A program made the position numbers and the translations under genes. Of a stretch of 64,000 nucleotides of DNA, positions 44,398 through 54,053 are shown in pieces. This DNA comes from Hymenobacter sp. 15J16-1T3B (GTDB lineage: Bacteria; Bacteroidota; Bacteroidia; Cytophagales; Hymenobacteraceae), in contig NZ_JAJFAV010000005.1 in NCBI RefSeq assembly GCF_020711235.1, forward strand, positions 124,001 through 188,000. Direction: 5' to 3'. Position 1 is the stretch's first letter, and every line of letters begins with the position of its first letter. The notes under the pieces were generated by a model that made no database searches, was not told the DNA's origin, and saw nothing but the letters and a program-made list of their open reading frames with translations.

Positions 44398-44796
44398 TTA
44401 GTACACGTAGCACAGCACCTCGCCGCCTACGTTCTGGGTGCGAGCTTCCTTCTCCGTCATCACCCCTTTCGAGGTCGACAGGATGGCAATGCCCAGACCG
44501 CTCAGCACGCGCGGCAGGTTTTCAACGTGGGCGTACGTACGCAAGCCCGGGGTGCTGATCCGCTGCAGCTTCTGGATGGCGGGCTTCTTGGTCACGGGGT
44601 GGTACTTCAGCGCGATTTTGATCGTGCCTTGTACTGCCGAGTCATCAAAACGGTAGCTCTGAATGTACCCTTTTTCGTAGAGCACTTTCGTGATTTCCTT
44701 TTTGATTTTGTTAGCCGGAATTTCTACTACCCGGTGGTTGGCCTTGATGGCGTTGCGCACCCGGGTCAGGTAGTCGGCAATCGGATCTGTGTTCAT
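44398..44796 (-). CDS. rpsH: Ribosomal protein S8
   Basis: A 132-residue 16S rRNA-binding protein: MNTDPIADYLTRVRNAIKAN at the start and LSTSKGVMTEKEARTQNVGG at the end. It is the first gene of a new transcription unit here, because rpsN upstream ends in a terminator and a foreign gene intervenes. Two minus-7 boxes and a structured leader precede it. S8 is the autoregulator of the spc operon in E. coli. Confidence 0.98.
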   Translation of the reverse strand: MNTDPIADYLTRVRNAIKANHRVVEIPANKIKKEITKVLYEKGYIQSYRFDDSAVQGTIKIALKYHPVTKKPAIQKLQRISTPGLRTYAHVENLPRVLSGLGIAILSTSKGVMTEKEARTQNVGGEVLCYVY

Positions 44797-44835: not shown

Positions 44836-44843
44836 CAAAGGTA
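44836..44843 (-). promoter_or_regulatory. Proximal TAnnTTTG box before rpsH
   Basis: Perfect TACCTTTG (as CAAAGGTA on the plus strand), followed by CGG, 39 bp before the rpsH ATG. No TTG partner at the usual distance; its upstream half is occupied by an inverted repeat. Confidence 0.45.
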
Positions 44844-44849
44844 GGAAAA

Positions 44850-44977
44850 TTTCGCAGCCATAGTTTTCCTATGACGGCGAAATCCTCGGTTAAGACTACT
44901 TGACATCCACAGCGTTTCCGCCGCAGCCAATGGTTTCTTGTGGCAACCTGCCAAATGGTGTGTGGGGCGTCCCCCAC
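44850..44977 (-). promoter_or_regulatory. Structured leader of rpsH
   Basis: Three hairpins lie between the distal promoter and rpsH: 44850-44863 with 44869-44882 (14 bp, two mismatches), 44941-44945 with 44949-44953 (5 bp) and 44962-44967 with 44972-44977 (6 bp, four-base loop). A transcript from 45001 would carry all of them. They could form an autogenous control site for a ribosomal protein. Confidence 0.45.
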
Positions 44978-45000: not shown

Positions 45001-45028
45001 CAAAGATACGTAAATGCTTAACACAAAA
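45001..45028 (-). promoter_or_regulatory. Distal promoter of the rpsH unit
   Basis: On the minus strand TTTTG (45024-45028), a 15-nt spacer, then perfect TATCTTTG (45001-45008) followed by CA. The spacer begins TGTTAAG, similar to the promoter before rplC. It lies about 205 bp before the rpsH ATG. Confidence 0.75.
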
Positions 45029-45074
45029 GCAATAGGCAACTTCGCTTAGTTACCATAATGTTCCGCGGCTAACT

Positions 45075-45632
45075 CTAGCGTAGCGGAATAGCTTGTCTAT
45101 CCAAATCCCATAAATCAGCTTCCGAATGTTCCTCTAGATAATGCTCGAAGTAGCTCCAGCCTTCTTCGCGAATTACTTCGGCTTCTGATTTAACGACAGG
45201 CAGCAGCCAAACGAAAATGGTACTGGGTGTGCTGCCTCCAAACTCATGTAGCTCATCGGGCCAGAAAACTGGAACGGACGCGTATACTCCCGTCACCTCT
45301 ACCCCATCTATCAGTGGCTTACCTTCTACAACTTCTCCTCGCAACAACCCTGTGCCACTATCAGCAACGCTTTCTGCAAACGTCATGAGAAACGAAGTCA
45401 CATCATCAGGCGGATAAGTGTTGTAAGTGCTGAAGATTAACTCTTGCCTAAGCTGCTTTCCGTCACCTATATCAAGCACGAACTTATCCAATCCCAGCGT
45501 GCAGTAAGTGGACAGGTCCTCAGCTGGAGTTTGCTCGAACAACACCACTTGAATCCCATACTTTTTATTATGCTCTGCCCAGCCACGTGTCATTGGCCCG
45601 AGGTAAGCTTCCATGTGTTCGTATAGCTTCAT
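45075..45632 (-). CDS. Suppressor-of-fused (SUFU) domain protein
   Basis: A 185-residue soluble protein. The SUFU pattern is visible in VEVTGVYASVPVFWPDELHE, FVWLLPVVKSEAEVIREEGW and FEHYLEEHSEADLWDLDRQA. In bacteria such domains have been described as immunity proteins of polymorphic toxin systems, but no toxin is adjacent. GC content is clearly lower than in neighbours by eye. The start is the ATG giving MKLYEHMEAY; an upstream extension of 16 codons would reach towards the rpsN terminator. The stop codon lies in a hairpin (45061-45088). It interrupts the rpsN-rpsH junction. Confidence 0.85.
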   Translation of the reverse strand: MKLYEHMEAYLGPMTRGWAEHNKKYGIQVVLFEQTPAEDLSTYCTLGLDKFVLDIGDGKQLRQELIFSTYNTYPPDDVTSFLMTFAESVADSGTGLLRGEVVEGKPLIDGVEVTGVYASVPVFWPDELHEFGGSTPSTIFVWLLPVVKSEAEVIREEGWSYFEHYLEEHSEADLWDLDRQAIPLR

Positions 45633-45664
45633 AAGGCCACTTGAGTAACCTAAGACTACAAAAG

Positions 45665-45712
45665 AAAACTGCTCAGCCAAAACTCCCGAGAGAGTTTCAG
45701 CTGAGCAGTTTT
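45665..45712 (-). terminator. Terminator after rpsN
   Basis: Perfect 13-bp stem (45665-45677 with 45700-45712) and an inner 6-bp stem AAACTC/GAGTTT. On the minus strand it runs into CTTTTG after TTTT. It lies 26 bp past the rpsN stop and before the SUFU gene. Confidence 0.88.
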
Positions 45713-45738: not shown

Positions 45739-46008
45739 CTACCAGCTAGCTTTCGTTACGCCGGGGATTTTACCGGCCGAAGCCATTTCCCGGAACGTTA
45801 CGCGGCTGATGCCAAACTTGCGCATGTAGCCACGCGGACGGCCGGTCAGTTTGCAGCGGTTGTGCAGACGTACGGGCGAAGCGTTGCGGGGCAGCTTGTC
45901 CAGACCTTCGAAGTCGCCAGCCTCTTTCAGAGCCTTGCGCTTCTCAGCGTAACGGGCAACCATCGCCACACGCTTCCGCTCTCTTGCTTTGATTGATTCC
46001 TTAGCCAT
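45739..46008 (-). CDS. rpsN: Ribosomal protein S14, zinc-free form
   Basis: An 89-residue protein: [20 protein letters not shown] and the end [20 protein letters not shown]. The length and single Cys mark the C- form without the zinc ribbon. It is the last gene of its transcription unit, since a strong terminator follows at once. Confidence 0.98.
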
Positions 46009-52580: not shown

Positions 52581-53900
52581 TTAGGCCGGACGCCACTGCC
52601 GCCCTTTGCGTACGCCGCGCTCGTGTCGGCACCCTGCCACGCTGCTCAACGGTAACAGCAAAAAGAACAGGGTAAACGTAAGCCCGGTTTGCCCTTCCAT
52701 CGTGGGCTCGACCATAAAGGAGAGCGTGACGATGATGTACTGCGCCACGAGCATAGGTGCGTGCCGACGGCGGGCCCACCACAGCGGGTAATAGAACGCC
52801 GCTAGGAAAAAAGCCAGTCCCAAGGTGCCGAAAGCCACCAGGTAGAACAAGAACTGATTATGCGGCTGAATCTGGTGTTCCTCGTCGATCTGCGGGTAAA
52901 ACTCCCGGTACCGCGCCGACATTTCATCCCGCAGATCAGCTTTCCCTACACCAAATAGCGGGTGGTCTTTCCATACCTGGAACGCCGTCTGGTACGAGTA
53001 CACCCGGCCCACCAAGGAGTAGTTATTAGCCGAGTGCGTCTGCTCTACCCGGCTGGCGTCGTCCTTGGTGTTGTGGTACTTGTTGTAAAATGTTGGCAGG
53101 GTGAAGTAGCTGACCACTGGCAATACCACCATCATGGCTGCCACGGTGCCCGCTTTGCGCCATTCCCGTTTCTTGAGCAAGTAGCCAATTGCAACTACAG
53201 CTAGCACGTACAGGGCGACCAAACCGCTACGTACGGCCAGCAGGTGCAAAAAGCCCGCAAGGAATATCGTAGCGCTCAGGACGGCTACCCGGCGCCAACC
53301 GGTCAGAACCTTGCGGTTAAGCATTACAGCGCCGACCGCAATCGACAGCACGATGAGCAAACTAAACCGGATATGGTCCGGTACCGTGGGCATTATCTTG
53401 GAATGGGTGTACAACTCGTTGATGTACTCCGCATTCAGCAAGTAATAGATGGTGCTGCCGATAGCAGAAAACGTAGTCACCCCCAACAACAGCTTATAGA
53501 GTCGCTTTAAGTCGCTGATCGGAAGCGGAGGCAGGATCCAGAAAGCCAGCGGCAGCAGCAGAAAAGGCAATTGCAGTATCACGTCGCGCCAGAACTCCTT
53601 GACATTGGCCGTGCTGGTATTGAAGCCTGCAACCAAGTGCATCAGGAAGATTAGGGCGAAGCCCAAGTATACCGGCCACTTATTGCGTTGGGCCACCTCG
53701 CGAAACTGCACTAAGTACGCTAGCGCGCTTAACAGCAGGCAGCCCTGGCCAATGCTCGACAGCACGCGGAAGAACGGGAAGGTAAACAACCCGGTAATCA
53801 CCATGCCGCAGCTGATGGTGGCGGCCGTCTGGATGCGGCCGACCGTTAGCCAGGAAGAAGTACTTGAAGCGGCAGAAATACTCACAGACGTTGAACGCAT
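52581..53900 (-). CDS. O-antigen ligase-like (Wzy_C) membrane protein
   Basis: A 439-residue integral membrane protein with about ten spans. The Wzy_C-type region has HPLFGVGKADLRDEMSARYR, a large polar loop around ASRVEQTHSANNYSLVGRVY, and HNQFLFYLVAFGTLGLAFFL. The family joins O-antigen or related glycans to lipid A, or polymerises them. The start is the ATG giving MRSTSVSISA; a later ATG (MVITGLFTF) is possible. It lies between rpsJ and rplC, an unexpected position, with a terminator before it. GC content looks lower than the ribosomal genes. Confidence 0.82.
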   Translation of the reverse strand: MRSTSVSISAASSTSSWLTVGRIQTAATISCGMVITGLFTFPFFRVLSSIGQGCLLLSALAYLVQFREVAQRNKWPVYLGFALIFLMHLVAGFNTSTANVKEFWRDVILQLPFLLLPLAFWILPPLPISDLKRLYKLLLGVTTFSAIGSTIYYLLNAEYINELYTHSKIMPTVPDHIRFSLLIVLSIAVGAVMLNRKVLTGWRRVAVLSATIFLAGFLHLLAVRSGLVALYVLAVVAIGYLLKKREWRKAGTVAAMMVVLPVVSYFTLPTFYNKYHNTKDDASRVEQTHSANNYSLVGRVYSYQTAFQVWKDHPLFGVGKADLRDEMSARYREFYPQIDEEHQIQPHNQFLFYLVAFGTLGLAFFLAAFYYPLWWARRRHAPMLVAQYIIVTLSFMVEPTMEGQTGLTFTLFFLLLPLSSVAGCRHERGVRKGRQWRPA

Positions 53901-54017
53901 ACCCACAGCTGCACGCGTGGGCGAAACGCAAGTTACCGATTTCGTGCCAGCCTTTCCAGCGGCACGGCGTTGCCCACCTTTTACGCAGAGCTGGGCATTA
54001 AGGAAATGGTTGCAAAC

Positions 54018-54053
54018 AAAAAGCCCCACCGGCCGAGGCCAGCGGGGCTTTTT
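54018..54053 (-). terminator. Terminator after rpsJ
   Basis: A 10-bp stem (54018-54027 with 54044-54053) with A5 and T5 at its feet and a GC-rich loop that can pair further. On the minus strand TTTTTGTTTG follows. It lies 18 bp past the rpsJ stop and can act on both strands. Confidence 0.9.

Follow-up and report, generated by a model that had tools for sequence, protein, structure and literature searches.

The junction between rpsN and rpsH in the spc ribosomal operon of Hymenobacter sp. 15J16-1T3B, which holds a gene for a Suppressor-of-fused (SUFU) domain protein, is in our judgment likely to be an insulated slot for accessory genes. Here, the operon would have been split before the slot was filled, the contents would be exchanged via the ribosomal genes, and the SUFU gene would encode an orphan immunity protein that is expressed by readthrough. 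On the comparative sequence evidence, the slot is old and insulated, and not a scar of the arrival of the SUFU gene. All positions refer to the window, the whole stretch of 64,000 nt that was analyzed.

Anatomy of the rpsN-rpsH junction

The S10-spc-alpha cluster is a textbook example of conserved gene order. An earlier note on this DNA had described rpsN and rpsH as adjacent in nearly all bacteria, with the SUFU gene placed between them. This placement was borne out, as Pfam identified all three genes, each on the minus strand: rpsN (S14; 45739..46008; PF00253, E 3.9e-29), which is the left border gene of the slot, the SUFU-domain gene that currently occupies it (45075..45632; PF05076, E 4.9e-17), and rpsH (S8; 44398..44796; PF00410, E 1.3e-50), the first gene of the restarted unit. 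Tight adjacency as a rule was overstated, since it does not hold in the family of Hymenobacter, where the distance between the two genes ranged from 83 nt to 38 kb among 116 genomes.

These genomes come from a search of 204 family genomes, in which rpsH was found in 202 and rpsN in 200. Both genes were among the matches listed (150 places each) in 122 genomes, 6 of which were dropped with the genes on different contigs. The 116 classified genomes comprise 8 of the window genus, 98 of another genus (g4), 3 of g2, 2 of g3, and 5 of g6, with none of g5; the two-genus comparison covers the 106 junctions of the window genus and g4, with the other 10 as outgroups. Within the window genus, the gap was 219 nt in one genome (G001) and 804-945 nt in the other seven, and it exceeded 600 nt in 27 of the 98 g4 genomes (both genes on one contig). 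When 28 junctions of the S10-spc-alpha cluster were surveyed in 20 genomes (the 8 genus genomes and 12 chosen from g4, none with more than 1 kb at rpsN-rpsH), only rpsJ-rplC and rpsN-rpsH exceeded 253 nt, with maxima of 2,549 and 942 nt. In the window, the rpsJ-rplC junction of the S10 operon holds an O-antigen-ligase-like gene (Wzy_C, E 3e-25; 52581-54029, minus strand), and all 8 genus genomes as well as several g4 genomes have a similarly sized gap (1.7 kb) there.

Read along the minus strand, the order of elements is rpsN, terminator, SUFU gene, P1, leader, P2, and rpsH. The left border of the slot is formed by the rpsN terminator, a hairpin with a U-rich tail (45665..45712, minus strand). 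With G-U pairs allowed, 20 pairs were counted in the stem (45712-45665), and for the region 45738-45655 the predicted folding energy is -37 kcal/mol (z -5.4), a stability equaled by none of 200 shuffles. The hairpin itself thus agrees with the perfect 13-bp terminator of the earlier note, but the 13 bp are only the perfect outer part of this longer stem. On the right, the slot is bordered by a promoter-like site, P1 (45001..45028, minus strand), where the proposed promoter before rpsH, TTTTG-N15-TATCTTTG, was found by sequence match exactly as written, at 45028-45001. It is of the Bacteroidota type, for which the consensus is TTG/TAnnTTTG. A sigma-70 scan returned 3 promoter-like sites where 1.4 were expected, and neither P1 nor P2 was among them, as would be the case if the phylum uses other boxes.

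Two elements closer to rpsH had been overlooked. One is the promoter-like P2 box, TACCTTTG (44836..44843, minus strand), 47 nt 5' of the rpsH start. Of the 106 junctions, 105 have a TAnnTTTG box 36-52 nt upstream of rpsH, as do all 10 outgroups, which marks P2 as the old promoter. The other is a conserved, structured leader RNA, GGCAGGTTGCC..AAGAAACCATTGGC..GTCAAGTAGTCTTAA (about 44889..44955, minus strand), recognized by core conservation and covariation. Its core, AGAAACCAT, occurred in all 106 junctions from the two genera and in none of the 10 outgroups. The predicted structure contains 15 pairs, with 98.1% of cells paired and 7 pairs with double changes, and none of 500 shuffles scored as high, although the test favors a structure that was derived from the same alignment (50 sequences picked for diversity from 98 distinct ones). 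Slid versions of the structure scored far lower. The leader occurs once in the strain's own genome (at most 3 mismatches), and Rfam held no family over cut-off for it, the one sub-threshold match being a snoRNA (E 0.33). Our guess is that the leader may be a ribosomal-protein binding or autoregulatory site.

The SUFU gene likely starts at the ATG at 45632 (185 aa), as the alternative TTG at 45680 (201 aa) falls within the terminator stem. Its protein scored 62.8 bits against PF05076 (curated cut-off 25), covering profile positions 4-172 of 172. No solved structure was related to it by sequence (best E 0.33), and NCBIfam gave it no name at E 0.01. The table of Zhang 2012 (PMC3482391) gives GxS, E, E, and DxxR as conserved residues of SUFU; read by eye, our protein has GLD where GxS is expected, while DLDR is present. 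The gene had been called low in GC, and its GC of 0.480 and GC3 of 0.481 were indeed the lowest among the 42 ORFs in the window with 150 codons or more, a reference set that includes some spurious antisense frames (medians 0.635 and 0.798).

Insulation and filling of the slot

P1 was called where a TAnnTTTG box lay in the P1 position, with the boxes of G030 and G099, which sit beside rpsN in gaps of <300 nt, excluded by hand. It was present in 51 of the 106 junctions, and in seven of the eight genus genomes the TATCTTTG box lay 210-212 nt before rpsH. A U-tailed hairpin after rpsN, defined by at least 6 T in 8 nt, was found in all 51 junctions with P1 versus 14 of the 55 without it, where this plain T-count searched shorter stretches; three of these 14 (G078, G079, and G103) look like true terminators. 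The T-count was used since the promoter/terminator caller missed the U-tract, which was paired into the stem, in 10 of the 51 P1-bearing junctions. Median hairpin energies were -29.5 kcal/mol in P1-bearing and -16.2 kcal/mol in P1-less junctions.

Filling of the slot followed the same division. Gaps of more than 600 nt were found in 34 of the 51 junctions with P1 versus 0 of the 55 without, a contrast that does not amount to 106 independent trials, as the genomes are related and P1 occurs mostly in one clade. The other 17 P1-bearing gaps, all from g4, were empty: they measured 309-412 nt and lacked, ahead of P1, any ORF of 40 codons. On a tree of 116 tips built from 1.5 kb of ribosomal sequence, 3 changes of the P1 state and 11 of the filled state were required, compared with 37.7 and 29.9 for shuffled labels. 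The exceptions were G061, a separate case with P1 outside the main clade, and G001, which lost P1 inside it. By parsimony, these data place the splitting of the operon before the filling of the slot, given the 17 P1-bearing slots without an ORF and the absence of large gaps from P1-less junctions.

We propose that two elements were acquired in an ancestor, a U-tailed terminator after rpsN and P1 in front of the older block of leader, P2, and rpsH, which would have turned the operon into two transcription units. As DNA between terminator and P1 would then no longer interrupt ribosomal expression, single small genes, along with longer stretches in some lineages, could be gained, swapped, and lost. 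That ribosomal expression was retained despite the added gene, as the earlier note had held, is plausible by way of the terminator and promoter.

Occupants of the slot and their proposed exchange

Ten of the 34 filled slots (G007, G004, G023, G046, G051, G063, G065, G124, G088, and G059) have no listed first gene. The 24 first genes of the slots fell into 16 groups (E 1e-3), which together with the 11 changes of the filled state amounts to high turnover at a fixed site. Pfam named SUFU twice, Imm51 twice, and LRR, HEAT, and DnaJ once each. Only 5 of the 24 (SUFU 2, Imm51 2, and LRR 1) match families that are known immunity types or are grouped with them, and most of the 24 are uncharacterized, which does not suffice to name this an “immunity slot”. 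In a search at E 0.01, NCBIfam named none of 10 uncharacterized occupants. Beyond the first genes, the third ORF in G133 is HicB-like, and G051 carries a gene that resembles a truncated Imm51. Seven first genes formed a small lipoprotein-like family (lipobox by eye), which was found in 7 of the 204 family genomes, in 6 of them in the slot (L096, L103, L094, L107, L110, and L092); the truncated copy in G090 was not recovered. Larger inserts contained a signal peptidase gene and, by eye only, runs of RND efflux and polysaccharide genes. Four genomes (L105, L106, L107, and L110-L111) carry in the slot an opposite-strand RND efflux run with a two-component system, by eye; the inserts reach 38 kb in G104.

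Within the window genus, the window strain's own genome (G000) and G002 contained the SUFU gene, while G003, G005, and G006 held three unrelated genes, G004 a decayed relative of the G005 gene, G007 a remnant without a long ORF, and G001, with its gap of 219 nt, nothing. In G007 (L077, 670-770), the terminator hairpin has grown into a near-perfect palindrome of 42 pairs, and the slot has only this remnant. G002 and G003 are sisters in every tree built (support of 100 in both the concatenated and the rpoB tree), yet only G002 holds SUFU; judged by these sequences, the occupants of the genus do not follow the tree.

The SUFU gene is not common to close relatives, in line with the earlier suggestion of an added gene: it was found in 2 of 8 genus genomes, the strain's own included, and thus in 1 of 7 congeners. 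This second genome is apparently that of Hymenobacter edaphi, where the gene, at 86% identity, occupies the same place. The copies in G000 and G002 share 88.3% DNA identity (divergence 0.117), while ten neighboring genes are 94.8-99.0% identical. SUFU matches were present in 8 of 204 family genomes, four of which, the strain's own included, were at least 53% identical, and in 3 of 395 drawn phylum genomes. The two relatives at this level besides G000 and G002 both lie outside the ribosomal operon. A second SUFU gene is located elsewhere in the strain's own genome. Searches for a mobile-element origin of SUFU found no relative in the phage collection and 4 records in the plasmid collection, all at most 37% identical, and this origin was rejected.

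The best single sign that slot contents are transferred comes from G056 and G131, which are not close on the tree. Their terminator and occupant are 94-99% identical in 100-nt windows, whereas identity is 84% in the DNA immediately before rpsN and 78% in the next gene that both have; rpsN does not discriminate, as all pairs examined show it conserved. This block suggests recombination through the ribosomal genes. Turnover trees, built from ribosomal loci and rpoB, showed a weak conflict among the flanks: G000 and G006 are sisters in the left flank but lack support at rpoB (51), and in one block of the right flank G006 clusters with G002 and G003 (76). For the SUFU gene itself, an older presence with replacement in sisters is as likely as transfer, since its divergence of 0.117 lies below the 0.16-0.18 (82-84% identity) of the neighboring rpsJ-rplC insert.

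Both the origin of the slot and its refilling could be read differently. In the order of events given by the earlier note, the SUFU gene would have brought along a terminator and a promoter of its own and so divided the operon; both elements do flank the gene exactly, and the arrangement is common to two genomes. We consider this highly improbable, as the same terminator and P1 surround unrelated occupants in 5 further genus genomes and also border the 17 g4 slots without a 40-codon ORF, and P1 changed state 3 times against 11 for filling. A site-specific cassette system, with the terminator hairpin as an attC-like recombination site and an integrase acting in trans, would fit the single-gene, mostly promoterless cargo. 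It would also fit part of the homology borders: when filled slots were compared at ≥92% (352 ordered pairs), the left border fell no more than 15 nt from where the terminator ends in 72 pairs and never at +16 to +60, while 4 ordered borders, from the two pairs with a common occupant, lay beyond 60 nt. However, the other 276 pairs lose homology before the end of the hairpin, the hairpin sequence varies between lineages, no integrase was recognized by eye in the single-gene slots, and selection against insertions in rpsN, the terminator, or P1 would yield identical borders, which makes such a system quite improbable. Most likely, exchange would take place by homologous recombination in the flanking conserved ribosomal genes, with no dedicated recombinase.

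Slots of this kind have partial counterparts. HGT hotspots without mobile elements, which recombination in the adjoining core genes maintains, as described in the excerpted text of Oliveira 2017 (PMC5635113), share the fixed site, the fast turnover, the core-gene flanks, and, here in the single-gene slots, the lack of a recognized mobile element. In contrast to these, the present site lies inside the spc operon, has as its borders a terminator and a promoter that accompany filling, and mostly holds one small gene directly behind rpsN. Published rearrangements of ribosomal clusters likewise involve genes inserted in a conserved ribosomal gene cluster, but those in the excerpts at hand are mainly between operons or gene deletions, with no repeated refilling of one intra-operon junction. 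No paper describing the rpsN-rpsH slot was found in the open-licence literature searched.

Putative role and expression of the SUFU gene

The closest SUFU relative in the plasmid collection, from P. phymatum (37% identical), begins 2 nt downstream of the gene for a hemagglutinin-repeat (CdiA-like) protein, the last 400 residues of which end in a GH-E nuclease (PF14410, E 2.4e-18). Together with the PF05076 match and the lowest GC and GC3, this agrees with the earlier description of a putative immunity-type, compositionally odd, added gene. In the excerpt of Zhang 2012 (PMC3482391), Imm-SuFu of polymorphic toxin systems is listed with Tox-GHE, among other partners. Our SUFU gene is alike in its score over the Pfam cut-off and its plasmid relative directly behind a GH-E toxin; it differs in its ribosomal operon site, with rpsN and rpsH as neighbors in place of an adjacent cognate toxin. 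The GH-E toxin family PF14410 was absent from all 8 genus genomes, in a search that was positive in 2 of 14 control genomes, but as GH-E is one of several SUFU partners, this absence does not prove orphan status. Immunity genes retained without a toxin in Bacteroidota are also found in the acquired interbacterial defense (rAID) clusters (excerpted text of PMC12247911), which, unlike the single gene between rpsN and rpsH with no recombinase noticed, form arrays of immunity genes with a recombinase. The SUFU product is probably an orphan immunity protein, which would bind and neutralize a nuclease toxin from a competitor bacterium. Immunity is our best guess for this occupant, but not for the slot overall.

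No TAnnTTTG box was found between rpsN and the SUFU start, which favors either a promoter that departs from the consensus or readthrough. In 15 of 24 slots, SUFU included, the stretch from rpsN to the first gene had no such box, making readthrough the simplest route; in the others it fell in the terminator U-tail (6), inside the hairpin (2), or downstream (1). Occupant start codons lay 7-72 nt past the terminator in the loci measured. The SUFU gene would thus lack a recognizable promoter and would probably be modestly expressed by readthrough of the rpsN terminator. In six g4 genomes (L089, L092, L097, L098, L090, and L100), the terminator tail spells TAnnTTTG, and a single element could there serve as both terminator and weak promoter.

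Two readings assign the SUFU gene no immunity function. It and its slot-mates could be neutral passengers in a permissive spacer, as the decayed occupant of G004, the remnant in G007, the truncated genes in G050, G051, and G090, and the large unrelated inserts of up to 38 kb would suggest. We find this rather unlikely, since dN/dS between the two SUFU copies is about 0.12 (dN 0.056, dS 0.458), which argues for a working protein, the Imm51 gene is intact in two species, and of the 7 family genomes in which the lipoprotein family was found, 6 carry it in the slot. The location downstream of rpsN, where readthrough would couple expression to growth rate, could also mean that the occupant serves the ribosome or stays for co-regulation with ribosomal genes. 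This we hold to be barely credible and have rejected: the occupants are mutually unrelated (16 groups) with no common family, a strong terminator lies ahead of them, and the SUFU relatives in G028 and G021 are sited elsewhere in the genome. An orphan immunity protein in an insulated slot remains our preferred reading.

A bolder and more doubtful possibility is that genes exchanged between species dock at the split spc operon: the insulated position right after rpsN would receive cassettes, the ribosomal genes would provide homology arms, and calibrated leakage of the terminator would express the occupants, among them orphan immunity proteins and the lipoprotein family, which is nearly confined to the slot. 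If true, the ribosomal operon would be a shared delivery site for competition genes. As a terminator-promoter pair predicts the repeatedly refilled junction within spc, the places where foreign DNA can settle would follow a directly testable rule: insulation, then insertion. The slot also yields a conserved leader RNA before rpsH with no counterpart over cut-off in Rfam, and a list of small uncharacterized genes as candidates for immunity or defense.
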